This document shows positions 23,072 to 62,189 of a stretch of 64,000 bases of DNA, one piece after another. Origin of the DNA: Thelephora terrestris (Eukaryota > Basidiomycota > Agaricomycetes > Thelephorales > Thelephoraceae); assembly GCA_015956445.1 (NCBI GenBank), contig WIUZ02000010.1:1178001-1242000 (forward strand), in the 5' to 3' direction. The translations under genes and the position numbers were made by a program. The notes under the pieces were generated by a model that saw only the letters and a program-made list of their open reading frames with translations, was not told the origin of the DNA and ran no database searches. Position 1 is the stretch's first letter; every line of letters begins with the position of its first letter.

Positions 23072-23327
23072 TGTCAGGCCGACGCGACCTCTACAGTTCA
23101 ATAGCACTCTTGCTATCCAAACCTATCACACTTAGGGGTCAAACACACAGTTATAGCCCTATTGCAAATCCAGGGATATCGGAAATCTCTTCACAGACTA
23201 GATTGGAGAGGAGGAGAAAGAAGGAGACAAGGGTCTTCAGATACTCTTGCTCTTAGCACACAGCAGTAGAGGTCACGGAGAGTCTGATGATAACAAATCT
23301 AAGGAGTACAGGCTAAACTACTCTGAG

Positions 23328-23335
23328 TATATATA
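23328..23335 (-). promoter_or_regulatory. Outward TATA box of element C
   Basis: TATATATA on the minus strand, about 256 bp inside the TGTCAGG end, in the same relative place as in A and B. Confidence 0.45.
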
Positions 23336-23699
23336 CTACCTAGATTTGTGATGTGACAGTGACGTGTAACTACACTAATGATACAAACACAGACAAACAT
23401 GGTCTGTGCACAGCACTGCATGGTCTGTGCGTTACGTGGTGACTAATGCTACAAATTATCAGCTGATAAACGAAAATGTGGTGGCCAATAGCAATTTGAG
23501 AGCATTACAAAGCAGTTACAAAGCATGACGTATCCTGAGAATGTTCGGAAGGAATGTGGGTATGGCTGACTAACAGCCAATAGCAAAAGGGGAGCATATG
23601 ACTAAGAAATAGGGGCATATGATGTCATGTGGGTCATGCACAGTAAACAATAGAAAAGATGACTCAACTCCTGAGTCATGGAAGGGGTGTGGCATTTGG

Positions 23700-23706
23700 T
23701 ATATAA
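23700..23706 (+). promoter_or_regulatory. TATA box of the element C gene
   Basis: TATATAA followed by an A-rich stretch. Without the hairpin inserted at 23737 it would lie about 70 bp upstream of the ATG at 24132. Confidence 0.5.
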
Positions 23707-23736
23707 TAAAAGGGGGTTGGATGACTAGGTCTCCCA

Positions 23737-24098
23737 CACAGTGGGCAATGGGGTCCAATCCCATCCGGATTTTCCCTTGTTTATATTCTGATTAGGATAA
23801 ATATTACTTACATTTTCTGTATTAGTTTAGTACTGGAAAATTATTGGTAATATTGCTAAGAAAATGTTGGGAAACTTGTAAAATATTCCGTGTCGGAATA
23901 TTGTGATTGGAGCCAGCTGATTGGCTAGCACAGCAAAATATTTTAGATAATCCGAAAAATATTCAAACAATAATCCTTGTTGGATTATTCTTGGATTTTC
24001 AGATATATACTAGATTAGAAAATACACGGAATATTTATCCTAATCAAAACATAAACAGGGGATAATCCGGATCGGATTGGACCCCATTGCCCACTGTG
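23737..24098. mobile_element. 362-bp hairpin element in the leader of the C gene
   Basis: Ends CACAGTGGGCAATGGGG and its reverse complement; 3-bp duplication CCA (23734-23736, 24099-24101). Arms of roughly 90 bp pair almost perfectly around an AT-rich centre. The ends differ from the CACTGGGGG group, so this is a second CACTA-like non-autonomous family. It separates the TATA box from the ATG of the C gene. Confidence 0.8.
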
Positions 24099-24131
24099 CC
24101 AACAAACCATCCTTTGTCCCACACAGCCAAC

Positions 24132-25316
24132 ATGCCTCGTGCCAACATCCGTTCTACCTCTCGTTGTGCCTCCGTTTCTCCTGTCATGGAGGACGACTTC
24201 AACATTGAACGCTTCTCCCATGCTCGTCGTGATCGGTCCCGCCCTTATCCTACTCTTGGGAATGTTATGGACTGTTCCGCCACCGCCAATCCTAATGAAG
24301 GCTTTACCGACTTAGGTGGGAGGTCTGGTTGCGCATTCCAATTTTAGGAAAGCTAACCAAACACCCTTTTTAGGATTTTGGGATTTCATTCAAGCTTCTC
24401 GTAGGGTGTCTTGGCGTAAGTTGGTGCGTATCGAGACTAACCCTTACGTGGAAGAACTCCTGACTCGTGGGGTTGAGTTCGTTACGGAAACAAATGAAAC
24501 CTACAACTCGATCCTTGAGGCCAGCGTTATTCATACGAGTAACGTTGGTACTATGTTGATGGATGAGTTGGCCTATGTTCAGGCCCGAGTCGATAGTAGG
24601 AAGGAGGATATTGCAAAGCTTGAAGAATGGAAGGGGACCGCCCAGGATATTATGCAAGGACAGGAAGACGTGATCAATATATTGAAGGGAGAGTTTGCTA
24701 CTCTCAAGGATTTGATCCGGAGTCTGGTCACTAAGACCGGAGAGTTGGAGGACGATAAGGTACTGGGACTGGGATCGAAGATAATTGGTTTCTTCTAACC
24801 CTGTTCCTTTAGGTTCACCTTACTCGTTGTGTCTCCAAGTTGACCGGGGAAATCCAGGATCTCCAGAGGAGGTGCAACGAACCGGAGGTTCGAGTTGAGG
24901 AAGAGGAGTTGATGATTCCGGAGCGGGCCGAGTCTCCGCCAGCTCGTCTCGTGGTTCAGTACGAGAACCGGTTGGTTCCGATTGACGATGAGGTGGTAGA
25001 AATTCAAGAGGAGGAGTTCTACCGGAATGTTGGAGTTGTCCGTAGGGACACTCCTCATCCGGTTAGGAGGTTGACTCCTCTTATCACCGTCACGGACACC
25101 ACTCAGCCAAGGGGGCAATGGCCGGTTCAGGACTTTGATCCGTATGCCGAGTTTGTTCCTGACTCGGAACCGAATTCTGATACGGAGGATCTCCCTAATT
25201 ATGACGACTTGTCTGATGTAGATCCAAACGAGATTAGGGAGCAGAACTGGGCGAACGAGGAGTTGGTGAGGTTGGCCTTGGAGGCAGTACAAAGGATCCG
25301 CAGAGATATTGATTAG
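24132..25316 (+). CDS. Element C coiled-coil protein (open)
   Basis: Family not recognised. Exons 24132-24315, 24374-24759 and 24813-25316 give 1074 nt and 357 aa with no internal stop. The N-terminus is basic and serine-rich; a helical body follows (FWDFIQASRRVSWRKLVRI); a long coiled coil spans about residues 100-210 (ARVDSRKEDIAKLEEWKGTA, KLTGEIQDLQRR). The C-terminal half is acidic (DSEPNSDTEDLPNYDDLSDVD), ending LALEAVQRIRRDID. The architecture (basic start, coiled coil, acidic tail, three to six short exons) parallels the A, B and D proteins, though direct similarity is weak. Upstream, the hairpin at 23737-24098 lengthens the leader. Cellular role unknown; assembly through the coiled coil is inference. 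Confidence 0.7.
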
Positions 25317-25837
25317 ATAACTCTTTTGTACTGTGGCTCCTGGAATTAATCTTCTATTTTGTCTTTTGCGTGTGATCCATGAGTCGTAAAGCATAATGGT
25401 TTTCATAAGTCCAATCCAAGGGTCAGATTAATAAGTTGGTTGACTTCTGCGAGAGGTCAACACTGTCACTCATTAATACATCCCTTGTTGTCGGTAGCCT
25501 GAATATCTACTAGTCGTCCAGGGGCAACAGAGGGCCAGGTAGGGGGGATCTTTGTATGAAGGTCTGCCGGTACATGTTCACGTATTATACCTCGGGTCTT
25601 CTGGGGTATCTTGACTAGTAGCATGTTCCATGTATTGGACTTTGAGTTGTTAAGCATAGGGCATATGGCATAATAAACAGTTTACCGCTGTGTTTAAGAC
25701 AGGGCACCAACTGACTTAGTGGTGATGAGGTGTTAAATATTGGAAATGAAAGGGGGTAAACAGTGAAATCATCACAGGAGGATCTTATAGTAGATGATGG
25801 GGGAGAGAGAGAGAAGCAATTGATTGATCTATCTACA

Positions 25838-26222: not shown

Positions 26223-27525
26223 TGTCAGGGCCACTCTACCCCAACAACTACCAGTGCACTGAGCCGACTCCGCAGAGTACTCACTAGTCCAACTAGCTGT
26301 GAGAGAAAGATCACTTCTCTATTCTTCCGGTAGGTTGTCTGAGGTCACTACAAGTCAGGTCGAAATCCTAAAGAGAAACCCAACCTAAACCGTACTTCGT
26401 TCGGTTTAACAGGCAAGGGTTTATCCCTACAACAGGATTTGATGACTCCACCAGGTGATCGACTGGACGCTCGAGGTGTTCTAATATGAACGCTGGGGTT
26501 CTATAGTTACGAGGCGCAGTTGACGCGCAGAGCGGGAGGGAGAGCAGATGGGGGATGCCTTGTGTTCAAACAAGAAACTCTGACTTGTCCTTAACTGCAA
26601 CTGGGCTGAGAATGGCAGAGGATTTCCTGAGGTAACAAAACTAAGGTACTACGATACAGCCACAGTTGTTACTTATACTAAAGGAGTGGCCATGTCGTCA
26701 ATACCCTAATATACCCTTATCAAGTCTGAACAAAGGGAGATAAGGAGTGTGAGAACGCTAAGTAAGGGAAGCGAACAAGTATGACGCGTGGGAGAATAAA
26801 GGACAAAGGGCCTTACTAGCGTGTGAAGGATTGCGTAAAAGATAACGAATGTCCGCATGAAACATAGGGGTAAAGATAACACTAGTCCTAAAAGAAATAG
26901 GGGCATGGGGTCATGAAAGTTCGTACCTGGGGATCACACCCAAGGGTCAGGTGAGAATCTTCTTGGATGCTTCCTTTGGAGAGGCCAAAGATAGAGACCA
27001 TGCATCATCCCTTGTTGTCTGTAGGCGGTAACAGCATCACGGACTAGTGGCAACCTCAACGTGCGTCCAAACATGAGGAGGTCGGGCCTAGACTCATGGG
27101 ACATGAGGGATTACAGATTCACCGGCATTTCACGCTAACGGCTACTCCACATTCGCTTGTCTAAACAAAAGGAGTCTAAGGCACTCCTTCCGAATAACGG
27201 CAATTCCTTCCTCCGGTTAGGAGACTGTGATGTGACTGTCCATGTGTGTTATCAGGGTCCAGGGTTGGTCGTAATCATGATGTCATAAATGAGTCATCAG
27301 GGTCGTAAAGGGGTTCGTAAAGGGGTCGTCAAGGTCATGAGACCTGTTTTTAGTGTGCGCACGTTCTAGGTGTTCCGGAACGAAGTTCTTCCAAGGCTGT
27401 CCCGCGGGCCGAGGTGTCAGCTTGATGTAGTAAGCCAACGATGATGGTACAGGGGCGGAAGTTGATGTGACCCGGACCAATGAGGTTTGTTGAGGTAGGT
27501 CACGTGAAGGATCACCGATCTAGGC

Positions 27526-27532
27526 TATAAGA
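27526..27532 (+). promoter_or_regulatory. TATA box of the B1 gene
   Basis: TATAAGA, 72 bp upstream of the ATG at 27598, in a block conserved in B2, B3, B4 and B5. Confidence 0.6.
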
Positions 27533-30012
27533 AGGACGTCTTCTTGGAGCCATCCTTGATCAGCAACACCAGCAACTTCCCCATCATCTTACCAAACATG
27601 TCTTTCCCCAACAACCATACCTACCAAGTTGCCAATGGGATCTCTACCATCTCCCATATTGACCGTCGTGCCACCAACTGCAAGTCCTATGCCAGTGAGG
27701 CAGGGGTTCCCTACCAAACCAATGAACAGGTATGGGGGAGAACTAGGGCTTCTTGTGCTGGTGCTAACTCTTTCCTTAGGTAGAGGTCATACGTTCTTTG
27801 GCAGGATGCTGAGCTAATGTCCTCTAGATCTTGGAGGTCGTCAAGAAGGTGGACGCCGAACGTCTCAGGGAGACGATCCCACATTTGATGGGGTTGACCT
27901 GGGATGATGAGCTCTGGGTCCGGTCCATGATCGCCGAGAAGGTGATCTTCCAGATGAGGGGTAGGTTCGGGGAATTGGAGCATCCAATTAAAAAGGAGCT
28001 CTGGTACACCCTGCAGAGGGGGATCTACGATCAGGACCTATTGGAGCACGGGGCAACCGTTCCTCGGGCCGTCCACCATGCCACCGCTTCCATGATGCTG
28101 TTGTGGTTGCTCGTTTGAGAGGGGGAAAGCCGAGTAGGTTTTCCGTTTGGATATTCGAGTATGACTCTCGACTAACCAAACTGCCTAGGTCGAACATTTA
28201 GAGCGCGAGGTGAAGGAGGCAAAGGCAGATGTCCTTCGTCTGTCGGCGGAGGGTCTCTTGATGAAGGAGACCATGGCCGACTTCCAGAAGAGGACAAACG
28301 AGCCGTTGGAGGCGATGGTGGCTAACCATCAAGAGTTAGTTGCAGGATTGAAGGTTCGGGACGTCAACATCAAGAAGGTGTTGGACACGAGGGACGATCG
28401 CCTGGACAGGCACTCGAAGAAGATCAGGGGTGAAAGTGCTAAGGTTCTTTCAGCCTTTGCAGGTTTATGCAATTGCTGATAGACTTCTTATAAATCGAGG
28501 AGCTTGAGGATCTGGTGTCCGTATTGACGGCGCAGGTCGAGTCCTTGCAGGACAAGACCTGCAACTGCAAGGAAGGTCCCGTCTTGGTTGGACAGGGGAC
28601 AGCCGACATTCCGTTCGAGTTGGAGTACGCCGATGAGGTGGTACTCCTGTCACCAAACCCGTCATCCTATGCCATGCCTCCGATCGAGAACATGGTTCCC
28701 GTTCTGACTCCGGCTCCAGCTTCTACTTTGGCCGAGTCCGACAAGGAGAACTGTCGGCGTTGCCCGCTGCAGCCGATCAGTCAGCTGGTCAAGATCGAGG
28801 ATGAGGTCATGAAAGTTGACTGGGCCGAAGATATTCCGAGGGTTGCCGAGGTACGTCCGGTGATAACAGGGCAGCGTTGTAAACGCTCTCGACGCCGTGT
28901 TGCTCATTGCATGGCACCCTCGGCTAATCCTTATCCGCGTCCAGTTGAGCTGGATGGTGACCAGTCTGGTCGAGATGAGGGAGGAGGATTCCGATATCGG
29001 GTCAACCGTCCCAACCAACAGGTCGAGTCGGAGGTCCAGCAAAGGCACCTCACCAGACTCGCAGTACAGGATCCCGGCCAGTGTCAGGGCCACTCTTCGC
29101 CCTTCAGGTACCAGTGCTGTTGGTGAGTCGCAACTCCAACCAACAAGAAACAATGGGGCAAAGGGGGAACGACTTCCCTATATCCACCCAAAGTCTACGT
29201 GGTCCAAAACGCGATGGACGAGCGTTCTCCGGTAGGTTGTCCGAATTCACAGCAGGAGTGCCGAGCCTCTATCAGGTAAATCCCTATCGTCTTCTGAGGG
29301 CAGATACAAGGGCCCGAGGATGGCGCCTCAAACTGATGTCTTGATCCAAAGAGCAGTGCGGAACTCGATGTCGTGTCCGAGCTCGCTTCAAACACCGGTT
29401 AAGGATCGAGTCTGAGTGAGAGAGGAGAGCGAACGGTTCAAGGAGTTACTCGATAAGCTCTTCAGTGGCCTACAGCAAATACACCGATGCTGCAAGGAGA
29501 AGAGGACTTCCCGAGATATCAAAGATGGGGAGTCCTCAGCTACTCTACTGGTACTTATATAGGAGAGTGGCCGGGACAGAGATAACCCTATCTAATAATA
29601 ACTCGGAGCAAAGAAGGGCCGAGAGTAAGCAAGAACAGTAAGCGGCCCGGAGTATAGAATAGAAATGGTAAAGGAATGACTAATGGGTCAGGGTTCGTGA
29701 GAGAATAAGAAAGGGGTCATGACATCGTGTGGGAAAGGAATGACAAAGAACAATATCACATGTGAAGACTGACCAATGAGAGGACGACGCGTCAGCTCGT
29801 CCGATCGGAACAACAAAGGACCGAGTGGGGCTTGAATGTCGAGGGCGAATGTATGAGGAGTCTGGACCGGTGAAACGATGGGCCGAGCCAATGGCGAATA
29901 GGGCGCGAGCGCTGTCGAGGGTCGAATAAAGCGTAGTGCGAACCGGCCATTGGATCCATCAAACTCCCTTCTTCCCAAATCAACAATCCCACCAACCAAC
30001 TACTCATCCACT

Positions 30013-32266
30013 ATGCCCATGATCTCCGATTGAGTCTTCCGTGCTGAGAACAGCACCGCTACCATCGAGTCTGCAGATCCTCGCTCCGTGCAGAACAAGA
30101 GTTACTTCCTTCCGAACGCCAACGTGGCGTACCCCAGTTATCGTGAGGTGCGACGTCACGTGTCGCCGTTTGCTGGCAACAACTGACATCGTATCGTAGA
30201 TCTTCGCGGTCGCCGCCAAGGTGGATGCCCGACAGCTGGAGGCGACGATAGCCAAGCCTCCCAGCTATTTGACCATAGACGACGAGCTGTGGTACCACAA
30301 CTTGATTGACCACAAGTTGCAGGAGTCTATGCGCGGGGTCACGTTTGACACCGAGTTGCGTATGCCATGGGAGACTCCGGTGGCGTCATCGTTGTGGGGT
30401 CTCCTGAAGATGGGGATCTACGATCTGGGAAACGGCGAAGGAAGGTGGCCGGGGGCGACTCGTTCGCAACACTATACCGCAGCCGTTGGTCACCGCCTTT
30501 GGTTCCTTTTGAGGACAGAACAGAAAGCGGTGAGTCGGTCTGTGCATCCCGCTTGTGGGATAACACTGACAGGCTTGTAGAATGAGCGACTGAAGCGTGA
30601 AGTGAAGGAAGCGAAGGATGATGCCCGTAGGATGTACTCGGAAGCGTTGGACATGAAGAAGACGCTGCTCCTGATGAACGATACGCTCCGCATCACGTTC
30701 GAGAGCGAGATGCTGGCGATGCACGAAGAACACAACCGGTTGGTCGAGTCCCTGAAGGAACGGGACGACACCATTCAGCGAGACCTGATCAAGGTCGACC
30801 GACGGCTCAACCGTCATAGAAGGGCTCTGAATGAGCTCGACACCAAGGTTGGTGCGACTTCTCCTGGTCTTTGTCCAAGAGAACTCATGCCACTTCTAGG
30901 TCGATACGTTGGACGACGCCTTGCCGTTGTTGGGTGCTCGGGTGGAGTCCATGACACTGGGGGCAAGGGCACCTGGAATCAGTGATTACATCTTGATTAC
31001 ATGGTGAGTTCATGTGCACTTTCCAATAATTGTAATTGCCGGTTCCAGGTTGATTACATTTCAAATGTTACCTTGACATGTGATCCAACCAATGTCCACT
31101 AATTCCATCTGAAATGTTCTCAAAAAATGTTTCTGGGATGCTTTTGACCTGTTGGCAAAAATGATACTGCAATGTAATCAGCATGTTCTTCAATCGTCCG
31201 AGATGTAATCTAAATGCGCTCAAAAACATGAGATGTTTTCACAATGTGCCCACTGGGCACATTCAGGAAACATTGCTTGGGAACATCTTGAGGAAATTTC
31301 AAATGGAGTTGGTGGCAACAGTTGAATTACATGTCAAGGTAACATTTGAAATGTAATCAACCTGGAATCGGCAATTACAATTATTGAAAAGTGCACATGA
31401 ACTCACCATGTAATCAAGATGTAATCACTGATTCCAGGTGCCCCTGCCCCCAGTGTGAGTGAGCGGTTGTGCCATTGCCGCACTCGTTCGGTGGCGGCGG
31501 TCCGCGATGAGTCCGAGGACGAGTTTATACCAGATCGGATGGCTTCTCCCATAGGTGGGATGTCGGTTGACATATTTGGCTTGTCCACTGACATCCTCTT
31601 TAGCCTCCGACGGTTCGTACCGTACACCAGCGCACACTGATGGCGGGGAAGAGGTCGTCCGCGAGACGTCCGAGGAGACGGCCGTGAATCCGGTTAGCAG
31701 TTCTCCCGAGTTGGAGTACGCGGGGGAGAACGAGGTGGCCGTTCTGGTTCCGCCTCCGTCGATCTCGCCGGTGCGTGGGCAACGTTCTATCCGTGCTCGT
31801 CGTTGGGTTCCTTATCGCGGGGCACTTCGTCCAGCGCACCGCATGCGTCCCAGCAATCCCAACGTTGTCTGCCAGGGTGGAGACATTGAGTCCACCGTCC
31901 TATTCTGATGCGACGATGCTACAGTGTCGCGTGGATCGCGGCGAACTGATTCCGGTGGAGTCCGTCGACGTGAACGGCTTAACCGACCTTACGCTCTTGT
32001 CGGTCCAGCATGCAGCGGAGGCCGTTCGCCTGGTGGCTCAACTGACCGAGAGAGTGGAGGGTTGGTCAGTCCAGAGGACTCTGGATCAGACTATGGTCGA
32101 TTCAGCGAGGAACCGCCTGCGCGCCGAGGTTCAACTGGCCGTAGCTCATCGTCTGGAGGAAGCTCGGGTCGTCGAGATGGTCGACGAGGAAGTCGACGAG
32201 AATGCCTCGGAGGGGACGGAGGAGGAGGTTGCCAGTGCTGAGGAGTACTGGCAGACCAGGTCTTGA
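30013..32266 (+). pseudogene. Element A2 coiled-coil gene (early stop, hairpin insertion)
   Basis: Same exon plan as the A1 gene. Codon 7 is TGA (30031-30033) where A1 has CGT; A3 carries the same TGA. The hairpin at 30955-31455 splits a later exon just before the cysteine motif. The remainder to EEYWQTRS (32266) is well preserved. Confidence 0.65.
30955..31455. mobile_element. 501-bp CACTA-like hairpin in A2
   Basis: CACTGGGGGCAAGGGCACC ends; TGA duplicated at 30952-30954 and 31456-31458. A full-length imperfect palindrome without coding capacity. Copies of identical length are at 43196-43696 and 47021-47521. Confidence 0.88.
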
Positions 32267-33632
32267 CGACTAGGGTTTGTACACCTTAGTCCTCGTCCAT
32301 AGAGTCTGGGCGGATTCAACTCCGTTGGTTTGATAGTCTTGTGTCTTCGTCGCGCGCCGTGTGCAATATCATCAGTGTCCTTGTCTGTGTTCCTTGATGA
32401 CGTGTGAGTCGTGATAAGGGAATCGATAAGATAGAAAGGGGTATAGGTAAGGACAGTGGGCGAAAGTTGGGTGTAGAAAATGGTTTAAAAAGGGAATAAA
32501 ATTCAGCACGCTGACAGCCAGGCCTCCGATGAGGGAGATGGAGGGTCGCTCTTCAACTACGTCGACAGCGCTGCCGAGCAGTCACCCGGTGATGGAGATG
32601 TGGGACCAGGTGTTCTGCAGTTTGGTGACATCTGGGAGGCTGATCGGTCCGCTCGAAGGCATCTCTTCCTATCGGCTTGAACTCACTGGGGGCAAGGGGT
32701 CACTTACCCAGCGATTACATTGTGGTTACATTGTGATTTTTTAGACAATGTATCCAGCCTGTGGCCAGGAGGTACATGCTGAGTTCTTTTAGAAAGAACC
32801 CATCAATTTGACCACAATGTGGCCAGCACTGGGTCCAGGATAGAATAGGTTTCTGGGGATTATTCTAAATAATAGGGGCCCCTTGATCCTTAACCACCAT
32901 CGAGTGAAGGATTCCCACGGTTCAAAAGTGGCAAGGGTAGCTCAGCCAGTAGGCTGAGCCAGCAGGTGAAGACACCGTCCCTACACAGAAATGTCCCTAG
33001 GTACAATAGCTACACGCTCGTGAGTGAGGAAACCCTCCTACCCCAACCGCGATAGTGGTTAAGAAGGATACACGGGAAGACCGGCGGAGGCCGCCTCCCC
33101 CGAGAAGGGAGAGGCTGGAAGATTGAGATGAATGTACCCCCTCCCCCCCAAGTAGCGAATGAAATACTACGACCTAGATAAGCATACCGAGGACCCCTCC
33201 CCCGCAATAAGCCCCACCCCTGAGGCAGACTGGTGGACAGACGCATACCACTGGGAAGAGGAAGTACCCCCCCCCCTAGACGCGCCGCGACGCGTCCCGA
33301 AAGAGAACTGCCGAGATAGCAGGAGGCACGGCTGACCACCCTAGCGGGGAACAAAGGAGGTAAAGTCAGGAGGACAGCCGTGACCCGAAGACAAAAGAAA
33401 AACGACCACGCACACCGTGAGCCCCCAGAGATCAGAGATGACGCGTCCTAGAACCCGCTCTCAAAGGAGGAAAGGAAAGAAACCGTGACGCATGGCAGAG
33501 GAAATGGGCCACGACCAGAAAGTACTTAAGGGCGAGAGATCTCTCCCCCAAGACGACAAGAACCCACCTTGCCTTATCTGAAAAACCCCCATCTCTCCTG
33601 TACTACCTCTCCCATACTTTCCATCCCCTGCA

Positions 33633-35147: not shown

Positions 35148-35596
35148 ATCATGCCGTTGCAAGCGACGAACCTACCGCAACAAGAACCGTTACTCTGTAC
35201 TAGAGTAGTTAGCATAGCCCCTAATCCGAAGAATACGCCCTAGAACACATCTGAAATAGAATATTTGCCTTGAGTTACCGAACTGACTGTATGCTGGAAA
35301 CGGCTGCGGAGACCGGAGTAAGAACCGGCATGAGCGACGCCCTGCTAGAGAAAAGGTGGGGAACCGTCGAGTCTGACCAGACAGTATTTTTCGGCCGGCC
35401 TCTTGAGGCGGGGAGGGCCGAGGGTGAAACCAAGTCCGGCAGAGGCGTCCGCACCTATCCAGCAGGTACGGGTGCCCGAGCGGGGCATCTTCCTAGGGCC
35501 GGGTGCCTGGCCTAGTACCTGTGTCCCGAAAATTAGCTGGCTCCTACACACACGACATATCAATCGCAGCTCCAGGATCACGAGGGGGGTGCGACG

Positions 35597-42998: not shown

Positions 42999-43084
42999 AT
43001 AAAAACTTTTGAGCATGGCTTTCTTTTGTGGGGAGAGCGTGAAGGATGAGTCGACAGGGAATGTCGACGAAAAATCCAAGTTTG

Positions 43085-43868
43085 CACTCTAAATGGTTGA
43101 TGAGCTCCGGTTCCGGACCCTAATCGCTGAGCAGATGATTCATCAAATGAGGGGTCGCTTTGGGGAACTGGAGCATCCCATAAAGAAGGAGCTATCACTG
43201 GGAGCAAGGGCACCTGGAATCGGTGATTACATCTTGATTACATGGTGAGTTCATGTGCACTTTTCAATGATTGTAATCGCTGATTCCAGGTTGATTACAT
43301 TTCAAATGTTACCTTGACATGTAATCCAGCCAATGTCCACCAATTCCATTTGAAATGTTCTCTACAAATGTTTCTGGGATGTTTTTTACCTATCAGCAAA
43401 AATGATACTGCAATGTAGTCAACATGTTCTTCAATCGTCCAAGATGTAATCTAAATGCGCTCAAAAACATGACATGTTTTCACAATGTGCCCAGTGGGCA
43501 CATTCAGGGGACATTGCTTGGGAACATTTTGAGGAAATTTCAAATGGAGTTGGTGGGCACAGTTGAATTACATGTCAAGGTAACATTTGAAATGTAATCA
43601 ACCTGGAATCAGCGATTACAATCATTGAAAAGTGCACATGAACTCACCATGTAATTGGGATGTAATCACCGATTCCAGGTGCCCCTGCCCCCAGTGTATG
43701 GTACACCTTGAAGCAAGGGGTCTTCGATCAAAACCTGCTGGAACATGGGGCAACCATTCCTCGGGCTATCCAACCTGCAACCACCTCTACCACCCTGCTA
43801 TGGTCTCTGGTTCGAGAAGGGGAAAGCAAGGTGGGTTTTCTCTTGGAATAACGAGTATGACTCTCGTT
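43085..43868 (+). pseudogene. Diverged B-type gene fragment
   Basis: Plus-strand remnant of exon 2 of a B gene (DELRFRTLIAEQMIHQMRG, FGELEHPIKKEL, then LLEHGATIPRA). It is split by a hairpin at 43196-43696 and cut at 43869 by A4. It is more diverged than B1 to B5, so it represents an older insertion. Confidence 0.65.
43196..43696. mobile_element. 501-bp CACTA-like hairpin in the old B fragment
   Basis: CACTGGGAGCAAGGGCACC to GGTGCCCCTGCCCCCAGTG; TAT duplicated at 43193-43195 and 43697-43699. Same length as the copies in A2 and A3. Confidence 0.88.
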
Positions 43869-51400: not shown

Positions 51401-52272
51401 CCGAACAAAGGGAGATAAGGAGTGTGTGAATGCCAAGTAAGGGAAGCGAACAAGTATGACGCGTGGGAGAATAAAGGACAAAGGGCCTTACTAGCGTGTG
51501 AAGGATTGCGTAAAAGATAACGAATGTCCGCATGAAACATAGGGGTAAAGATAACACTAGTCCTAAAAGAAATAGGGGCATGGGGTCATGAAAGTTCGTA
51601 CCTGGGGATCACACCCAAGGGTCAGGTGAGAATCTTCTTGGATGCTTCCTTTGGAGAGGCCAAAGATAGAGACCATGCATCATCCCTTGTTGTCTGTAGG
51701 CGGTAACAGCATCACGGACTAGTGGCAACCTCAACGTGCGTCCAAACATGAGGAGGTCGGGCCTAGACTCATGGGACATGAGGGATTACAGATTCGCCGG
51801 TGTTTCACGCTAACGGCTACTTCCACATTCGCTTGGCTAACCAAAAGGAGTCTAAGGCACTCCTTCCGAATAATGGCGATTCCTTCCTCCGGTTAGGAGA
51901 CTGTGATGTGACTGTCCACGTGTGTGATCAGGGTCCAGGGTTGGTCGTTATCATGATGTCATAAATGAGTCATCAGGGTCGTAAAGGGGTTTGTAAAGGG
52001 GTTGTCAAGGTCATGAGACCTATTTTTAGTGCACGCGCGTTCTAGGCGTTCTGAAACGAAGTTCTTCCAAGGCCGTCCCGCAGGCCGAGGTGTCAGCTTG
52101 ATGTAGTAAGCCAACGATGATGGTACAGGGGCGGAAGTTGATGTGACCCGGACCAATGAGGTGCGTCGAGGGAAGTCACGTGAAGGATCACCGATCTAGG
52201 CTATAAGAAGGACGTCTTCTTGGAGCCATCCTTGATCAGCAACACCAGCAACTTCCCCATCATCTTACCAAC

Positions 52273-54849
52273 ATGTCTTTCCCAAACAACCACACCTACA
52301 AAGTTGCCAATGGGATCTCCACCATCTCTAGCATCGACCACCGTGCCGCCAACCGTAAGACCTACGCCAATGAGGCGGGGGTTCCCTATACCACAGATGA
52401 ACAGGTATGGGGGAGATCTAGGGCTTCTTGTGCTTGCGCTAACTTTCCCTCTAGGTAGAGGTTACGTTCTTTTGGTGTTGATGTCAAGCTAACGGCTTCT
52501 AGATCTTGGAGGTCGTCAAGCAGGTGGACGCAGAACGTCTCAGGGAGACGATCCCACATTTGATGGGGTTGACCTGGGACAACAAGCTCTGGGTCCGGTC
52601 CATGATCACCGAAAAGGTGATCTTCCAGATGCGGGGTAGGTTCGGGGAATTGGAGCATCCAATCAAGAAGGAGCTCTGGTACACCCTCCAAAGGGGGATC
52701 TACGATCAAGACCTATTGGAGCATGGGGCAACCGTTCCTCGGGCCATTCGCCATGCCACCGCTTCCACCACGTTGTTGTGGTTGCTCGTTCGAGAGGGGG
52801 AAAGCCGAGTAGGTTTTCCGTTTGGATATTCGAGTATGACTCTCGACTAACCAAACTGCCTAGGTCGAACATTTAGAGCGCGAGGTGAAGGAGGCTAAGG
52901 CAGACGTTCTTCGTCTGTCAGCGGAGGGTCTTCTGATGAAGGAGACTATGGCTGCCTTCCAGCAGGGGATGAACAAGGCATTGGCGGCGATGGTTGCCAA
53001 CCATCAAGAGTTGGTTGCCGGACTGAAGGTTTGGGATAATAACATCAAGGGGGCCTTTAATAGGAGGGACAATAAGGTAGCTTTCCTCATCTCGAAGACG
53101 AAATGAGGGAAGCTGACACTTTCTAGATGGAGGAACTCGAGGACTTGGTGTCCGTGTTGATGGCGCAGGTCGAGTCCTTGCAGGACAAGACCTGCAACTG
53201 CAAGGAAGGTCCCATCTTGGTTGGGCAGGGTACAGCTGATGTTCCGTTCGAGCTGGAGTATGCCGACAAGGTGGTACTCCCATTGCCTAACCCATCGTCC
53301 TACGCGACGCCTCCGATCGAGAACGCAGTTCCCGTTCCGACTCCGGCTCCGGCTTCGACTTTGGCCGAGTCCAACAAGGAGAACTGTCGGCTTTGCCTGT
53401 CGCAGCCAATCAGTCAACTGGTGAAGATCGAAGATGAGGTCATGGATGTTGACCGGGCTGAAGATGCTCCGAGGGCCTTTGAGGTACGTCCGGTAACCAA
53501 GGGGCAGCGTTGTAAACGCTCTCGACGCCGCCTTGCTCATTGCATGGCTCCTTCGGCTAATCCGTACCCTCGACCAGTTGAGTCAGATGGTGACCAGTTT
53601 GGTTGAGACGAGGGACGAGGATACCGATCACTGGGGGCAAGGGGTCAAATACCCGGTGGGTACATGCTGAATACATTGTGATCACAGTCAACAAGTGATC
53701 ACAATGTGCCCAGTGGGGAAAATTTGAATACATTCAAAATGTACCTGGCCATGTGAACCCAATGTGCCCAGTGGGCACATTTTGATTGCGATCACAATGT
53801 ACACATCAATGTGAACTCAATGTGCCTGCTGTGCACATTTTAATTTCTTTCACAATGTCCCCATCAATGTGTTCTCAATGTACCCAGCTCATTAAATAAT
53901 AGTTTCTTTCACAATGTTGTCCACAATGTGTCCAGCATGTGGCTGAGCCACTCATTCAAAATTCTTTCAAAGATTATCCAGTGATGTGTCCATAATGTCC
54001 CCAGGGGGTTCTTTTTGAAGTAATCACAATGTAATCACAATATTGTTCGATTTCATCAAGAACTTTCAAAGAAATCACTATCTGTATGGCTGTACACATT
54101 CTAGACACATCACTGGATACTTTGTGAAAGAATTTTAAATGAGTGGCTCAGCCACATGCTGGACACATTGTGGACAACATTGTGAAAGAAACTATTATGT
54201 AATGAGCTGGGTACATTGAGTTCACATTGATGTGTACATTGTGATTGCAATCAAAATGTCCCCAGTGGGCACATTGAGATCACATTGATGGGTACATTGT
54301 GATCGCAATCAAAATGTGCCCACTGGGCACATTGGGTTCACATGGCCAGGTACATTTTGAATGTATTCAAATTTTCCCCACTGGGAACATTGTGATCACT
54401 TTTTGACTGTAATCACAATGTATTCAGCATGTACCCACTGGATATTTGACCCCTTGCCCCCAGTGGATATCAAGTCAACTGTCCCTACCGAAAGGTTGAG
54501 TCGGAGGTCCAGCTCCGACACCAGCTTCATCTCGCAAGACAGGATCCCACCCAGGGGTCCGATGAGGGAGACGGAGGGTCGCTCTTCAACTACGTCGACA
54601 GTGCTGCCGAGCAATCACCCGGTGATGGAGATGTGGGACCAGGTGTTCCGCAGTTCGGTGACATCTGGGAGGCTGATCGGTCCGCTTGAAGGTATCTCTT
54701 CCTATCAGCTTGAACTCATCGTTCAGCTGAGCGCGGAAGATGGTGACGCCATGTTTGGAGAGATCCTTGCGAGGAGGGACCGGTTCTACGATCTCCGGGA
54801 TGGAACGCTGATGACCATGAGGCCTGCCGTAGATCGAGTTGACTTTTGA
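52273..54849 (+). pseudogene. Element B3 coiled-coil gene, interrupted by a hairpin
   Basis: The exon plan is as in B4: ATG 52273, exon 2 from 52503, third exon from 52864 (VEHLEREVKEAKADVLRL), fourth from 53127 (MEELEDLVSVLMAQVESLQ, KTCNCKEG). TGA at 53604-53606 replaces the CGA of other copies. The hairpin follows at 53629. The final frame after it reads ELIVQLSAEDGDAMFGEILARR to 54849. Confidence 0.65.
53629..54465. mobile_element. 837-bp CACTA-like hairpin in B3
   Basis: CACTGGGGGCAAGGGG ends; GAT duplicated at 53626-53628 and 54466-54468. Same length as the copy at 4720-5556, with high similarity through both arms. Confidence 0.88.
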
Positions 54850-56541
54850 TGGACTTGGATAGCACCATATATAGCCATGTTGTTACGATTCGCTGGGAAT
54901 GGTACGCGCATTTGTGTGTTTGAATGATTGGAGTGAAGGATAAGGAGTGTGAAGCATTCAAACATAAGAAATGGTAAGAAGAGTTCGAAGAAAGAGCGTG
55001 TTATAAAAAGTTTAAAAATACCATGTTCCTGACAAAGTTCTAGCTCCACCCCATACCTCTTCATCCAACTGGTATGGAACTCCCACCTCACAGGCATAGG
55101 CCTTGCGAGCGGCAGCACGGCGGTCAATATGGGAGATGGTGGAGATCCCATTAGCGACTTTGTAGGTGTGGTTGTTGGGGAAAGTCATTTTGGTAAGATG
55201 ATGGGGAAGTTGCTGGTGTTGCTGATCAAGGATGGCTCCAAGAAGACGTCCTTCTTATAGCCTAGATCGGTGATCCTTCACGTGAGCTACCTTGACGCAC
55301 CTCATTGGTCCGGGTCACATCAACTTCCGCCACTGTACCATCATCGTTGGCTTACTACATCAAGCTGACACCTCGGCCTGCGGGACGGCCTTGGAAGAAC
55401 TTTGTTCCGGAATGCCTAGAACATGCGCACCCTAAAAATAGGTCTCACGACCTTGACAACCCCTTTACAAACCCCTTTATGACCCTAATGACTCATTTAT
55501 GACATCACGATAACGACCAACCCTGGACCCTGATTACACACGTGGACAGTCACATCACAGTCTTCCTAACGGAAGGAAGGAATTGCTGTTAATCAATGGG
55601 AGTGCCTTTAGGCTCCTTTTGGTTAGCCAAGCGAATGTGGAAGTAGCCGTTAGCGCGAAATGCCGGCGAAGCATGTAATCCCTCATGTCCCATGAGTCTA
55701 GGCCCGACCTCCTCATGTTCGGATGTATGTTGGGGTTGCCACTAGTCCGTGATGCTGTTACTGCCTACAGACAACAAGGGATGATGCATGGTCCCAGATC
55801 TTGGAGCCGCTCGAAAATTGCACAAAGCAATGAGACATTTCCACCTGACCCTTGGGTGTGATCCCCAGGTATGAACTTTCATGACCCCATGCCCCTATTT
55901 CTTTTAGGACTAGTGTTATCTCTTATGCATTCCTTCACACGCTAGTAAGGCCCTTTGTCCTTTATTCTCCCACACATCATATTTGTTTGCTTCCCTTACT
56001 TAGTGTTCTCACACTCCTTATCTCCCTTTGTTCTATCTCAATAAGGGTATATTAGGGTTATTGACGTCATGGCCACTCTATTAGTATAAGTAGCAACTGT
56101 GGCTGTATCGTAGTACCTTAGTTTTGTTACCTCAGGAAATCCTCTGCCCTTCTCAGCCCAGTTGCAGTTAAGGCCAAGTCAGAGTTTCTTGTTTGAACAC
56201 AAGGCATCCCCCATCTGCTCTCCCTCCCGCTCTGCGTGTCAACTGTGCCTTGTAACTATAGAACCCCAGCATTCTGTCACGAACGCGTGACATAGTAGCC
56301 AAGATCTCACAAATAATTCAAGACATTGGTCTCATTCGCAGTAATAATAATACAAAGGTGACTAAAAGGAACTACAAACTTAGACAAGAACAAACGGGTC
56401 GATATCACATGAACAGTTCTGAGGAAGGGGGCAACGATGAGCGAAGTGGTGAGGGTTGTGAATACTTTCAGGACAATAAGACCACTCTCGCGTCACCGGA
56501 GCCAACACTCCCTACACCCCAACACATCATGAGATAAACTA

Positions 56542-57279
56542 TCATACATCTCTCGCCGCACGTCCGACAAGGCCTCGCTCACTAATGCGAACCCATAGCG
56601 GTCTTGGAGACCCGCCACCTCCACCTTCAACTTCATCCTCACCTGACGTGACTTGTCGGAGGGACGACAACGTTGACCAGAACGAGTCATCGGACTCTTG
56701 CGGGTCTTCTTCCTCTGGGACCTCTCCACCATCTGGCGAACTGGGGCAGGACTCCAGGGAGGGGATGGAGGGAGAGGAACGCCCTGATCCTGGCGGTGGC
56801 GAAGGGACGACTGGGGACTTGCAAGGGGGGTCGGTGCAATAAGCCCCGTGACATTGGTGTCCGAAATATCGGAAGAGAGATGCCTGGAAAGGTCCCCAAT
56901 GTTCCAAAGCAAAGTGAGAGAAGTCATCATTCAAGCTGTTCATGATGACGTACATGCGGTCCACCTGCTTCTCCAATTTCGCGATCCTATCCTCCCTATC
57001 CCTCTCCATGACGTCCAATAACTGAACGGCTCCAGGGTGTAGAGCCCGGACCACAGGCCCAGAAAGTCTGGGATCTTCGTAACCGGCCTGTTCCCAGAAC
57101 TCGGCAGGAGCGTTATGGGCGGTAAGGAAGTTGACGGCGACCTGATTGTCGTGGGCGATGTTGGCGGGAGTATCGTACAAGTGTTGCTCCACGTTGTAGG
57201 GAGCATCCGTCTCAAAGGACGGAGTGAAGGGGGTGGCGGCAGCGTTGAGGACGACATTGGCGGCAGCAAAAGCAGACAT
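56542..57279 (-). CDS. Element D coiled-coil protein
   Basis: 245 aa, single exon, open. No recognised family. The N-terminal third holds FLTAHNAPAEFWEQAGYEDPR. A coiled coil runs about residues 88-118 (MERDREDRIAKLEKQVDRMY). A cysteine/histidine patch reads CHGAYCTDPPC, near residue 145. The C-terminal half is proline/serine-rich and acidic (EVPEEEDPQESDD). Its place in the element, orientation against the outward promoter, and coiled coil followed by a cysteine motif match the A and B proteins. A TATA-like box lies about 90 bp upstream of the ATG. Function unknown. Confidence 0.6.
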   Translation of the reverse strand: MSAFAAANVVLNAAATPFTPSFETDAPYNVEQHLYDTPANIAHDNQVAVNFLTAHNAPAEFWEQAGYEDPRLSGPVVRALHPGAVQLLDVMERDREDRIAKLEKQVDRMYVIMNSLNDDFSHFALEHWGPFQASLFRYFGHQCHGAYCTDPPCKSPVVPSPPPGSGRSSPSIPSLESCPSSPDGGEVPEEEDPQESDDSFWSTLSSLRQVTSGEDEVEGGGGGSPRPLWVRISERGLVGRAARDV

Positions 57280-57365
57280 AGTAGCAGAGGATGGGAGAAG
57301 ATAGTACTGGTGTTTGGTGGGAGTGGAAAAGAGACGATGAGGGAAACGATCATTAATCCCCCTGA

Positions 57366-57373
57366 CTTAAATA
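57366..57373 (-). promoter_or_regulatory. TATA-like box of the D coiled-coil gene
   Basis: TATTTAAG on the minus strand, about 87 bp upstream of the ATG at 57279. Confidence 0.4.
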
Positions 57374-57480
57374 CATCCTGACTCAAGGAAAACCAGAAAG
57401 GGAAAACAAAAAAACCCATTATCCGTTAACGTCCCCATTAGGGTAAACGAACCCTCAACCCCAATCGAGATCCCATTAAT

Positions 57481-57625
57481 TCAGAGAAATCCCCATCGAT
57501 CAGGGGAAATCCCCACCACGCTTCTATTGCTGCCATGGATCCAGAGAAATCCCCATCGATCATGAGAAATCCCCATCACGCTTCTATTGCTACCACGAAA
57601 CACGAGAAATCCCTGAATGCTTCCA
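57481..57625. repeat. 60-bp tandem repeat in element D
   Basis: Two complete 60-bp units (57481-57540 and 57541-57600) and a partial third. They differ at a few positions and share AGAGAAATCCCCATCGAT and CGCTTCTATTGCT. They lie between the two divergent promoters, where enhancer repeats of an LTR U3 would sit. Confidence 0.75.
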
Positions 57626-57780
57626 TTGACCCGCGCCCCTATTGTTCCCGTATGAGTAATTACTATCGGTCGTCCTAAGTCCCCTCATTCTGACTCATCT
57701 GCCCTACCCTAAACTACGCACAGACCATGTTGACTCTTGTTTGACTCGTTGTAGAATAATGACTCCTGTAGAGGATTGGG

Positions 57781-57788
57781 TATATAAG
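57781..57788 (+). promoter_or_regulatory. Outward TATA box of element D
   Basis: TATATAAG facing the CTGACA end. AATAAA follows at about 57857, as in an LTR R region, then a plausible leader intron (GTAAGC to TTCTAG, about 57864-57912). Confidence 0.6.
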
Positions 57789-58373
57789 GAAGAGCGTTCG
57801 CTCCTTCTTTTCCCCATTCTCAATCTCTTCTGTACCTCTCTACCCTCAACTCGAATAAACAAGTAAGCTGAAGAATTCTCTTCACGCTTTACTCTTTCTG
57901 ATTCATTCTAGCAGGAATCCTCCTGCCAGTGTATGTTCAGCACCCCTAACCCTTTCCCCTCTACCAGTCCAACCCAGCGACCAGTTGTCCCTGACGCTAG
58001 AAGGTCTATCTGGGAGTATAAACTCATCAGAAGTCTTCAGGTAAACCGAACCGCTGTCAGGAACATGGTATTTTAAACTTTTTATAACACACTCTTTCTT
58101 CGAACTCTTCTTACCACTTCCTATGTTTTGAATGCTTCACACTCCTTATCCTTCACACCAATCATTCGAAACACACACACGCGCGTACTATTCCCAGCGA
58201 ATCCACAACGAGCTATACAAGTGCTATCCCAATCCCATCAAAAGTCGACTCTATCTACGGCAGGCCTGAAGGTCATCAACTGTCCATCCCGGAGATCGTA
58301 GTGCTGGCCCCTCCTCGCAAGAACCTCCCCGAACATGGCGTCACCATCTTCGGCACTCAGCTGAACGACTAGT

Positions 58374-59976
58374 TCAAGCCGATAGGAAGAGATACCTTCG
58401 AGCGGACCGATCAGCCTCCCAGATGTCACCGAACTGCTGAACACCTGGTCCCACATCTCCATCACCGGGTGACTGCTCGACAGTACTGTCGACGTAGTCG
58501 GCAAGCGACCCTCCGTCTCCCTCATCGGACCCCTGGGCGGAATCCTGTCTTGCGAGTCGTAGCTGGTGGCGAAGCTGGATCTCCGACTCGACCTGTCGGT
58601 AGGGACGGTTGACCCGATAGCGGAACTTTTGTCCCCCACCTCGATCAGACTGGTCACCATCCGACTCGACTGGACGAGGATAGGGATTAGCCGATGGAGC
58701 CATGCGATGAGCAGGACGGCGTCGAGAGCGTTTGCAACGTTGCCCCTTAGTCACCGGACGTACCTCGGCGACCCTCGGAGCATCTTCGGCTCGGTCCACC
58801 TCCATGACCTCATCCTCAATCTTCACCAACTGATGGATTGGCTGCAAGACGCAGCGCCCGCAGTTCTCTTTGTCGGAAGCGGCCAGAGTGGAAGCCGGAC
58901 CGGGAGTCGGAACAGGAACCGCGTTCTCGATCGGAGGTGTCGCATAGGACGACGGGTTAGGCGATGGGAGTACCACCTCGTCGGTGTACTCCAACTCGAA
59001 CGGAACATCGGCTGTCCCCTGACCAACCAATTTAGGACCCTCCTTACAGTTACAGGTCTTGTCCTGCAAGGACTCGACCTGCGCTGTCAACACAGCCACC
59101 ACATTCTCGAGTTCCTCCATCTAGAAAGTGTCAGCTTCCCTCATTTCATCTTTGAGATGAGGAAAGCTACCTTATTGTCCCTCCTGTTCAAGGCACCCTT
59201 GATGTTGTTGTCCCGAACCTTCAACCCCGCGATCAACTCCTGATGGTTGGCGACCATCGCCTCCAACGCCTCGTTGGCCCCTTGTTGGAAGGCTGCCAAG
59301 GTCTCCTTCATCTGAAGACCCTCCGCCGACAAACGAAGGACGTCTGCCTTCGCCTCCTTCACCTCGCGCTCCAAACGCTCAACCTAGGCAGTTTGATTAG
59401 TCGAGAGTCATACTCGAATATTCAAACGGAGAACCTACCTTGCTCTCCCCCTCCCGAACGAGCGACCACAATAACGACGTAGCAGCAGTGGCATGGCGGA
59501 CGGCCCGAGGAACGGTAGCTCCGTGCTCCAACAGGTCCTGATCGTAGATTCCCCTCTGAAGGGTGTACCAGAGCTCCTTCTTGATCGGATGCTCCAGCTC
59601 CCCGAACCTACCCCTCATCTGGAAGGCCACCTTCTCAGCGATGATCGTACGGACCCAGAGCTCATCGTCCCAGGTTAATCCCTTCAAATGAGGCATCGTC
59701 TCCCTGAGACGTTCGGCGTCCACTTCCGTGACGACCTCCAAGATCTAGAAGCCGTTAGCTGGACATCAACGCCCAAAAGAACGTAACCTCTACCTAGAGG
59801 AAGGCGTTAGTGCTAGCACACAAAGCTCTAGGTCTCCCCCATACCTGGTCATCCGTGGTATAGGGAGTCCCAGCCGCACAGGCATAGGTCTTGCGAGCGG
59901 CGGCACGACGGTCGATACGAGAGATGGTGGAGATGCCGTTGGCAACTTTGTAGGTATGGTTGTTGGGAAAGGACAT
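58374..59976 (-). CDS. Element B coiled-coil protein, intact copy
   Basis: Exons 59845-59976, 59439-59744, 59171-59383 and 58374-59120; all join in phase 0, giving 1398 nt and 465 aa. N-terminus FPNNHTYKVANGISTISRIDRRAA; a globular part with LTWDDELWVRTIIAEKV and PIKKELWYTLQRGIYDQDLL; a coiled coil in two blocks (VERLEREVKEAKADVLRLSA; ELENVVAVLTAQVESLQDK); the cysteine motif KTCNCKEG; an acidic proline-rich linker; a basic patch RCKRSRRRPAHR then ANPYPRPVESDGDQ; and an acidic C-terminus. A further frame to 58238 (QLSAEDGDAMFGEVLARRG) is conserved in all copies and may be an extra 3' exon. VESxxxxxCxC and the basic patch are shared with A. Function unknown. Confidence 0.7.
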
Positions 59977-60902
59977 GCTGTGGTAAGATGATGGGGAAGT
60001 TGCTGGTGTTGCTGATCAAGGATGGCTCCAAGAAGACATTCTTCTTATAGCCTAGATCGGTGATCCTTCACGTGACCTACCTCGACGAACCTCATTGGTC
60101 CGGGTCACATCAACTTCCGCCCCTGTACCATCATCGTCGGCTTACTACATCAAGCTGACACCTCGGCCCGCGGGACGGCCTAGGAAGAACTTCATTCCGG
60201 AACGCCTAGAACGCGCGCGCACTAAAAATAGGTCTCAAGACCCTGATGACCCCTTTATGACATCATGCACCCCTTTTACGACCCCTCATGACTTTACGAT
60301 TACGATCAACCCTGGACCCTGATCACACACGTGGACAGTCACATCACAGTCTCCTATCCGGAGGAAGGAATCGCCGTTATTCAGAAGGAGTGCCTTAGAC
60401 TCTTTCTGGTTAGCCAAGCGAATGTGGAGTAGCCGTTAGCGTGAAACGCCGGCAAATCTGTAATCCCTCATGTCCCATGAGTTTAGGCCTGCGCTCCTCA
60501 TGCTCGGACCTACGTGAGGTTGCCACTAGTCCGTGATGCTGTTACCGCCTACAGACAACAAGGGATGCTGAATGGTCTCTTATCCCGGAGCCGCTCGAAA
60601 ATTGCACAAAGCAATGGGAGGCTTCCACCTGACCCTTGGGTGTGATCCCCAGGTACGAACTTTCATGACCCCATGCCCCTATTTCTTTTAGGACTAGTGT
60701 TATCTTTACCCCTATGTTTCATGCGGACATTCCTTATCTTTTATGCACTCCTTCACACGCTAGTAAGGCCCTTTGTCCTTTATTCTCCCACGCGTCACCT
60801 TTGTTCGCTTCCCTTACGTAGCGTTCTCACACTCCTTATCTCCCTTTGTTCTGGACTTGATAAGGGTATATTAGGGTATTGACGTCATGGCCACTCCTGT
60901 AG

Positions 60903-60910
60903 TATAAGTA
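60903..60910 (+). promoter_or_regulatory. Outward TATA box of element B4
   Basis: TATAAGTA about 450 bp inside the CCCTGACA end, opposite in direction to the B4 coding gene. The same box occurs in B1, B2, B3 and B5. Confidence 0.5.
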
Positions 60911-62189
60911 GCAACTGTGGCTGTATCGTAGTACCTTAGTTTTGTTACCTCAGGAAATCCTCTGCCCTTCTCAGCCCAGTTGCAGTTAAGGCCAAGTCAG
61001 AGTTTCTTGTTTGATCCAAGACATCCCCATCTGCTCTCCCTCCCACTCTGCGCGTCAACTGCGCCTCGTAACTATAGACTCCCAGCAGTCATATTAGAAC
61101 ACCTCGAGCGTCCAGTCGATTAACTGGTGGAGTCATCAATCCTGTTGTAGGGATAAACCCTTGCTTGTTAAACCGAACGAAGTACGGTTTAGGTTGGGTT
61201 TCTCTTTAGGATTTCGACCTGACTTGTAGTGACCTCGGACAACCTACCGGAAGAATAGAGACGTGATCGTTCTCTCACAAGCTAGTTGGACTAGTGAGTA
61301 CTCTGCGGAGTCGGCTCAGCGCACTGGTAGTTGTTAGGGTAGAGTGGCCCTGACAACCACCGGTTTACTCACCCATTTTCCCTACTACCGACCCTTCGCA
61401 GCCCTCGACGCCAGAGTCACTACTCCTCCTTTCCTTCTAGGCGCAGACCATCAGTTCCTTTGGAACTCAGACCTCACTGAGAGTGTTCTAGCAACGGTCT
61501 ATTTCTGTGTTAGCCCCGCCTTTTACTTCCCGTCTCCCAAAGTCCATCTAACCACCAACGTTCACACTCACTGTCCCACTCTCATCGTCCTTTGGTGGGA
61601 CATCCCTACTGAACTACCTTATTCGATTATAGAATATCTCGTTCACTTCGAACAGCTCAGCGGTCAAGACTTCGAACCGTTCGTTCAGCAATTGAACCAG
61701 TTCTGCCAGGATTATAACTCGCCCGTCCACCCTTACCAGTCAGAGTCACCACTCTCACTTGATATCCCTCCTCCTCTCACCTCTACGCCTGGAACCCCCT
61801 TCAAAACTCGACCCGACACCCCGCACCCCTCTGCTAATCCTCTAGCGCCCCACAAACAGTAAGCAGGCCTACAACCCTGACACATTCATCATATAGAATA
61901 CCTCAAGTGTCCAGTCAATCACCTGGTGGAGTCATCAATCCTGTTGTAGAGATAAACCCTTGTTGGATAAACCGAGCGAAGCACGGTTTAGGTTGGGTTT
62001 CTCTTTAGGATTTCGGCCTGACTTGCAGTGACCTCGGACAACCTACTGGAAGAATAGAGACATGACCGTTCTCTCACAGCTAGTTGGACTAGTGAGTACT
62101 CTGTGGAGTCGGCTCAGTGCACTGGTAGTTGTTGGGGTAGAGTGGCCCTGACACCAACAAGGAGAACTGTCAGTGTTGCCTGATCAGTC

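Follow-up and report, generated by a model that had tools for sequence, protein, structure and literature searches.

Solo long terminal repeats of two chromovirus families in Thelephora terrestris carry an antisense gene under strong purifying selection

Self-priming is described as characteristic of the Tf1/sushi group of chromoviruses (PMC6317226, PMC10085805). The present work deals with two related families of Ty3/gypsy chromoviruses, A and B, of the basidiomycete Thelephora terrestris, reported to be ectomycorrhizal (PMC7550596), and with a gene located inside their long terminal repeats (LTRs) in antisense orientation to gag-pol. The elements were studied in a stretch of 64,000 nucleotides (contig C2, positions 1178001–1242000; hereafter, the window) containing a region of nested LTRs, where A2 and a long interspersed nuclear element (LINE) lie inside B1, A3 lies inside B2, and B4 lies inside D, which itself lies inside B5. 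Like A and B, the Tf1/sushi chromoviruses possess a pol with a chromodomain, 5-bp target-site duplications (TSDs), LTRs with TG..CA ends and a primer-binding site (PBS) complementary to the 5′ end of the RNA, the last of these features being predicted for A and B. The known LTRs of that group are a few hundred bp long; those of A and B, in contrast, come to about 3 kb and appear to hold a complete antisense gene inside the unique 3′ (U3) region.

Antisense accessory genes are described as widespread in the plant Retand/Grande/RIRE2 elements (TRP28 in Retand), and a regulatory role has been suggested for them (PMC11963269). By that description, the antisense open reading frame (ORF) of the Retand type sits internally, between pol and the 3′ LTR, and is thus lost from a solo LTR, whereas the A/B gene is placed within the LTR, bears introns and has no Pfam match, PF04195, the mark of TRP28, being absent from the Pfam matches. 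Plant elements are also reported to have LTRs as large as ~5 kb or to bear antisense ORFs internally (PMC6317226, PMC11963269). The retroviral antisense genes HBZ of human T-cell leukaemia virus 1 (HTLV-1) and asp of human immunodeficiency virus 1 (HIV-1) are described as having their promoter in the LTR, and solo LTRs of endogenous retroviruses as yielding antisense RNA, though without antisense ORFs (PMC10186651). The A/B gene shares with HBZ and asp the antisense orientation and, by prediction, the LTR-located promoter. HBZ is a bZIP regulator, and the coding regions of both HBZ and asp lie mostly outside the LTR. The sag gene of mouse mammary tumour virus is a protein gene within the LTR U3, like the A/B gene, but has the sense orientation and encodes an unrelated protein. 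In the literature searched, which was not exhaustive, no description of a gene inside fungal LTRs was met, nor was a complete, intron-bearing, selected antisense gene found in a chromovirus LTR.

The T. terrestris assembly searched (40.6 Mb) consists of 60 contigs, of which C1, C4, C5, C11, C12, C23, C59 and C60 are named below and should be distinguished from unit C. An earlier note on the window had interpreted its gene-bearing units either as solo LTRs with an intron-bearing antisense gene in U3 or as a new non-autonomous class moved by an unseen enzyme, and had named same-orientation pairs around gag-pol, with a PBS adjoining CTGACA, as the finding that would prove the LTR view. Genome searches were made with B4 (58055–61355, sense strand plus) and A1 (458–3378, sense strand minus), and such pairs exist in both families. 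The best 40 of 638 first-look candidates were scored with B4 and the best 40 of 292 with A1; by hand count, 32 of the 51 places listed for B4 and 23 of the 51 listed for A1 cover the entire query, the query itself included. Three same-orientation pairs of the 3.3-kb B LTR, 8.4–9.3 kb apart from start to start, are 99.94%, 100% and 99.97% identical within the pair, and the full elements are flanked by the 5-bp duplications GATTA, AGGAT and ATCAC. The internal region encodes a Gag of 484 amino acids (aa; Retrotrans_gag, CCHC), which is open in the elements of contigs C1 and C11, the internal region of the contig C4 element being ~940 bp shorter. The Pol (1272 aa) includes the Pfam domains RVP_2, RVT_1, RNase H, Integrase_H2C2, rve and Chromo, and this order, protease–reverse transcriptase (RT)–RNase H–integrase with a C-terminal chromodomain, is that of a chromovirus.

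The genome search with B Pol found eight loci at 98–100% identity and three at 63%, followed by other gypsy families at 24–33%. The three loci at 63% represent family A, with LTRs of 2.93 kb that are 99.93–99.97% identical within the element (three of three measured) and a Gag of 552 aa; the element inspected for a duplication has GTTTT. The A Pol aligns to positions 3–1272 of the B Pol at 63%, the domain scan having covered the B Pol. A1 is 89% identical to the LTRs of the full A elements on contigs C12, C23 and C5. Since near-identical same-orientation copies flank gag-pol, A1–A3, B1 and B4 are solo LTRs of two related Ty3/gypsy chromoviruses, and the gene of the unit is antisense to gag-pol in both families. 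The first interpretation of the earlier note is thereby established for A and B, and the non-autonomous class fails for them. The orientation of pol also refutes the candidate reading of the A gene as a sense gene.

The TG..CA ends and the 5-bp duplications noticed earlier are real for A1 (ATTCG), A2 (GCCAG), A3 (GGATT), B1 (ATATC) and D (CATTC), while the duplication of B4 (ACCGC/ACCAC) has one mismatch in the window copy; other copies of B4 in the genome have exact ends. The window contains 180 TGTCA[GC]..[CG]TGACA pairs 1.5–9 kb apart, four of them with an exact 5-bp duplication, against a mean of 0.24 in a chance control with the right flank shifted by 10–109 bases. When one mismatch is allowed, five duplications are observed versus 3.07 in the shifted control, so that the window copy of B4 alone is not remarkable. 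B2 (44310–51051, minus strand), a family B LTR interrupted by A3, has LTR ends and no duplication. The units were also considered as a transposon with inverted termini, and this candidate was rejected: the likeness to an inverted repeat extends over no more than the terminal six or seven bases, and the full elements carry direct repeats.

For unit C, the earlier note had recognised the common layout and had found no right end. The layout stands, and the right end is ATCACA at 25776; in all five further complete C copies inspected, the unit stops there and is flanked by exact 5-bp duplications. In the window, C lacks a duplication (flanks GATAG/GGAGG) and so may be rearranged. Besides the exact duplication of D in the window, five of six other complete D copies have exact ones, and the sixth (C60 at 796239) has one mismatch. 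In all four types the gene is oriented opposite to the sense strand, on the plus strand in A1, A2 and C because the sense strand is minus there; D has a sense gene in addition. Measured from the 3′ end of the sense strand, the sense TATA box is 453 bp away in B4, ~480 bp in A, 264 bp in C and 796 bp in D, in agreement with the 250–800 bp given before.

The internal region begins with GAGTAACAAAACTACCAGCCGGTACC in B and with ATATATCAAAGATACCAGCCGGTACC in A. From position +3, 12 bases in B and 11 in A form the complement of a single LTR segment (position 2883 of 3301 in B4, 2490 of 2934 in A), which a TATA box precedes by 34 bp in B and by 35 bp in A. None of 2000 mononucleotide shuffles of either LTR contains the pairing word. 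The pattern CTGACA-N12-TACCAGCC has 11 matches in the genome, one per close pol locus (eight B and three A), and its reversed-pattern control has none. Since the pairing offset and the TATA spacing agree although the PBS and R sequences differ between A and B, self-priming of the Tf1 type, read here from sequence only, is strongly expected in both families. It is likewise a strong inference that the sense transcript starts at the R motif, 34–35 bp after the TATA box. With such a start, the U3 of B would comprise ~2.9 kb and that of A 2.5 kb, and R together with the unique 5′ region (R-U5) ~420–445 bp; the antisense gene would then lie entirely within U3, be present in two copies per element and be retained in each complete solo LTR. 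In B4, the predicted U3 of 2,882 bp, which holds the entire antisense gene, corresponds to 58055–60936 (plus strand), with TATAAG 34 bp before the R motif, and the predicted R-U5 to 60937–61355 (plus strand), the first 12 bases of which, TAGTTTTGTTAC, are complementary to the PBS. The R motif of A1 is at position 2485 of 2921.

The antisense gene is under strong purifying selection. In B4 it is predicted at 58238–59976 on the minus strand (exons 59976–59845, 59744–59439, 59383–59171, 59120–58466 and 58395–58238), with a TATA box, TATAAG, at 60044–60049. This exon model was transferred from the contig C11 copy and is supported by the frame-specific ratio of nonsynonymous to synonymous divergence (pN/pS) and by annotated homologues; the last intron chosen is one of at least two possibilities. 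The B alignment included ten copies, three from the full elements of contigs C1, C4 and C11 and seven others, with the query (L001) and the partner LTR of L004 (L005) left out. The pN/pS of the coding frame is 0.06, 0.10, 0.03 and 0.09 in exons 1–4 versus 1.4–25 in the other frames, and the nine frames of three non-coding LTR stretches used as a control gave 0.84–1.12, bar two. Nine of the ten copies are without a gap or a stop in the gene model, B2 having two stops. For exons 1–3 of the A gene, pN/pS is 0.052 (six copies) and 0.047 (between the three full elements). Within one pair of B elements, pS and pN are 0.171 and 0.0061 for pol and 0.213 and 0.0116 for antisense exons 1–4, and the close ratios, 0.036 and 0.054, indicate that the antisense gene evolves much like the core gene of the element. 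The three full-element LTRs have 25/6 private changes (synonymous/nonsynonymous) and the remaining seven copies 61/30, of which 18/15 belong to the old B2; this pattern is consistent with selection while elements are active and decay later. The ends of the B LTR vary much less than the synonymous sites of the gene (over the first 200 bp of its antisense strand, ~5% of the sites are variable), which suggests conserved cis signals or an exchange of U3 segments between lineages.

The predicted product has ~470–490 aa, and the A and B proteins are homologous (exon 2, 34.5% identity, E 9e-10; exon 3, 40%, E 2e-11). The B-like proteins form 71 source-named database clusters, all from T. terrestris, with 257 member sequences (hand sum); 61 A-like sequences (hand sum) fall into three further clusters, and all four matches of the search with A come from T. 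terrestris. The profile search yielded 74 matches, all 74 from T. terrestris, among the 8000 candidates sharing most words, so distant relatives could escape it. Homologues are present in the NCBI annotation, and ~300 annotated ‘hypothetical proteins’ of T. terrestris (257 + 61) look like LTR sequence. No convincing relative of the antisense protein was found in PDB (best E 0.38), and tblastn against phages gave no match. The AlphaFold model contains one helix, residues 125–243, with block values of the model confidence (pLDDT) of 71–93 from ~141 to 240, and in two sets of 300 shuffles the heptad score was matched once and not at all, respectively. The model suggests a protein composed of a long coiled coil and a disordered tail.

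Unit C (23072–25776, TGTCAG..ATCACA read on the plus strand, sense strand minus) has TATATATA at 23335, descending, 34 bp before an R-like motif, TAGATTTGTTATC, which starts from 23301 and is similar to the B start. Its gene ORFs (24316–24798 and 24840–25316, plus strand) have a pN/pS of 0.18–0.29 with the window copy as reference and 0.18–0.42 with another reference (six copies); the candidate reading of this gene as a sense gene was rejected on the TATA/R motif. Unit D (56275–61882, plus strand; 2.3 kb without B4) has a sense TATA box at 57781, an antisense ORF at 56542–57279 (minus strand; pN/pS 0.28, with 0.26 for an overlapping second frame) and a sense ORF of 214 aa, split by B4 into 57933–58054 and 61361–61862 (plus strand; pN/pS 0.09), which was not seen in A–C; seven copies were compared. 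The D copies C60:796239 (with an insertion), C1 and C4 (incomplete) and the incomplete C copies were left out. The D sense protein has no Pfam match. The sense ORFs of the D copies measure 207–215 aa and end ~20 bp before the unit end; D copies are also present in L034 and L038.

No full-length C or D element around gag-pol was found among the best 40 candidates scored in each genome search, and, given this scope, such an element may have escaped. For six further gypsy pol families, the 3′ flank inspected (one locus each) has no C or D LTR, and a comparison by eye of 99 copia RT places with the listed C and D places gave no fit. A D copy downstream of a gypsy pol on contig C59 was rejected as an element LTR: it has an exact duplication of its own, AACGC, and no 5′ partner in 5.4 kb, and so is solo. 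Because C shares the TATA-to-R geometry of A and B, it is very probably the LTR of a further family without surviving complete copies. D, which contains an extra selected sense gene, is possibly another such LTR. Thus the LTR interpretation of the earlier note is likely for C and less secure for D.

The following mechanism can be proposed. Divergent U3 promoters would serve gag-pol in one direction and the accessory gene in the opposite one, and the first 11–12 bases of the sense RNA would pair with the PBS at +3. Lying antisense in the genomic RNA, the introns of the gene would not be spliceable from it and would be kept through the RNA cycle, which is how an intron-bearing gene could ride a retroelement. 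Recombination between the long LTRs would leave solo LTRs retaining the gene, and these might serve as extra gene copies while intact. The protein, expressed from the divergent U3 promoter, may act in trans on the element or the LTR promoter. By analogy with the retroviral antisense regulators and with the Retand antisense genes of plants, we tentatively propose, at somewhat less than even odds, that it regulates the element's own LTR as a dimer; a suppressor of host silencing is an alternative function. With a multi-exon U3 gene selected nearly like pol, a solo LTR would be a surviving gene rather than an empty promoter, and self-regulation of an element by way of its solo LTRs becomes a testable idea.

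Taken as a whole, the explanation of A and B units as solo LTRs of self-priming chromoviruses with a selected antisense U3 gene is highly probable, and a number of points weigh against it. The TATA boxes, the introns and the self-priming were all deduced from the letters of the DNA. Two of the nine control frames are also below 1 (0.46 and 0.54). The window copies A1–A3 each have one stop in exons 1–3, and B2 has its two, so that several of the solo copies must be dead. At its 3′ end the gene model is uncertain and the constraint weaker (0.23–0.35), the automatic annotations differing in the last intron, of which at least two versions occur. Over antisense positions 2591–2977 (window ~58763–58380), frame 1 (0.15, 0.35) yields to frame 2 (0.34, 0.23): the annotated models remove an intron (2591–2683) that by its pN/pS of 0.15 looks coding in frame 1, the selected frame changes to frame 2 after approximately position 2900, and part of the 3′ end is open in two frames. 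An alternative intron of B4, 58763–58670, joins another 3′ frame, and alternative splicing at this end is possible. As for the protein, no Pfam match above the cut-off and no functional domain were obtained, and beyond the coiled coil the structure model is unusable (mean pLDDT 46.9). The primer junction predicted for C has no genome match at two or fewer mismatches, the one predicted for D has two unconvincing matches, both at three mismatches, and a homology of the C and D antisense genes to those of A and B was rejected after blastp between ORFs and hhalign gave nothing.

Among the other explanations, the one that survives best, though it is less probable than the regulator, takes the antisense protein for a structural or enzymatic helper, acting in the particle, in packaging or as an integration partner. 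The constraint close to that of pol agrees with such a role, and the coiled coil could mediate assembly, but the gene is antisense, outside the gag-pol frames and provided with its own TATA box, and the scans gave no nucleic-acid-binding, Gag-like or enzyme domain. A more speculative extension of the regulator proposal, to which we give a rather low probability, is a dispersed copy-number or immunity system, in which each of some hundreds of solo LTRs would be a lasting, independently expressed copy of a control gene, the fast synonymous divergence would reflect diversification of lineages, and C and D would have come by such an arrangement independently.

A new non-autonomous class of gene-bearing elements with TG..CA ends and an enzyme encoded elsewhere is improbable. 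The copies listed are mostly single units, no complete C or D element turned up in the searches, and D holds two divergent selected genes in 2.3 kb, as such a class might; however, the LTR pairs around gag-pol refute it for A and B, C repeats the 34-bp TATA-to-R spacing of A and B along with the R-like motif, and the searches behind the negative result for C and D scored the best 40 candidates each. Slightly less credit still is due to selection at the level of the host, by which the genes of solo LTRs would form a domesticated family serving the fungus. The large number of predicted proteins in the database and the excess of synonymous private changes still visible in the seven non-element copies would suit a domesticated family; against this, B2 gathers stops and nonsynonymous changes, A1–A3 carry a stop each, and the low pN/pS of the other copies may be inherited from the active lineage. 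Least probable of all is that the ORFs are captured fragments of host genes, useless to the element and open because the insertions are young, since, notwithstanding LTR pairs 99.93–100% identical and stops in some solo copies, ~15–39% of synonymous sites per exon differ at a pN/pS of 0.02–0.10, with a constraint near that of pol, the gene is common to two families with pols only 63% identical, and the old B2 shows the relaxed private changes expected once a selected gene dies.

The remaining LTRs of the window include A2 (29082–32516, minus strand), a solo LTR of family A in B1, and A3 (45985–49421, plus strand), a solo LTR of family A in B2; the antisense gene of A1 starts on the plus strand from ~1389. 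A2 and A3 contain ~500-bp insertions resembling miniature inverted-repeat transposable elements, at 30954–31456 and 47020–47521, respectively, and since their sites in the LTR are ~25 bp apart, they may be independent insertions. The same inverted-repeat element, with 136-nt arms in the copy tested, is also found at 43195–43697. B1 (26223–42227, minus strand) is a solo B LTR split by A2 and a LINE-like element (33633–35147 and 35597–40744, plus strand), which we take to be Tad-like; the latter has two long open frames, with endonuclease, RT and RNase H in the second. B3 (51052–55034, minus strand) is a partial B LTR holding an 837-bp palindromic insertion, and B5 (55032–62153, plus strand) is a 5′-truncated B LTR in which D, bearing B4, is inserted. 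The 837-bp palindromic element occurs at 53629–54465 and 4720–5556 and has 370-bp arms and 58-bp internal subrepeats; another palindromic insertion, of 362 bp, lies in C (23737–24098). A diverged relative (74%) of the 3′ region of the B antisense gene at 63350–63609 possibly belongs to a further family. A piece of a terpene synthase gene (PF19086, E 1.7e-26) was detected at 7024–7797 on the minus strand, and F-box-like genes are located at 3010–4524, 8990–10276 (just under the cut-off) and 13137–14411.

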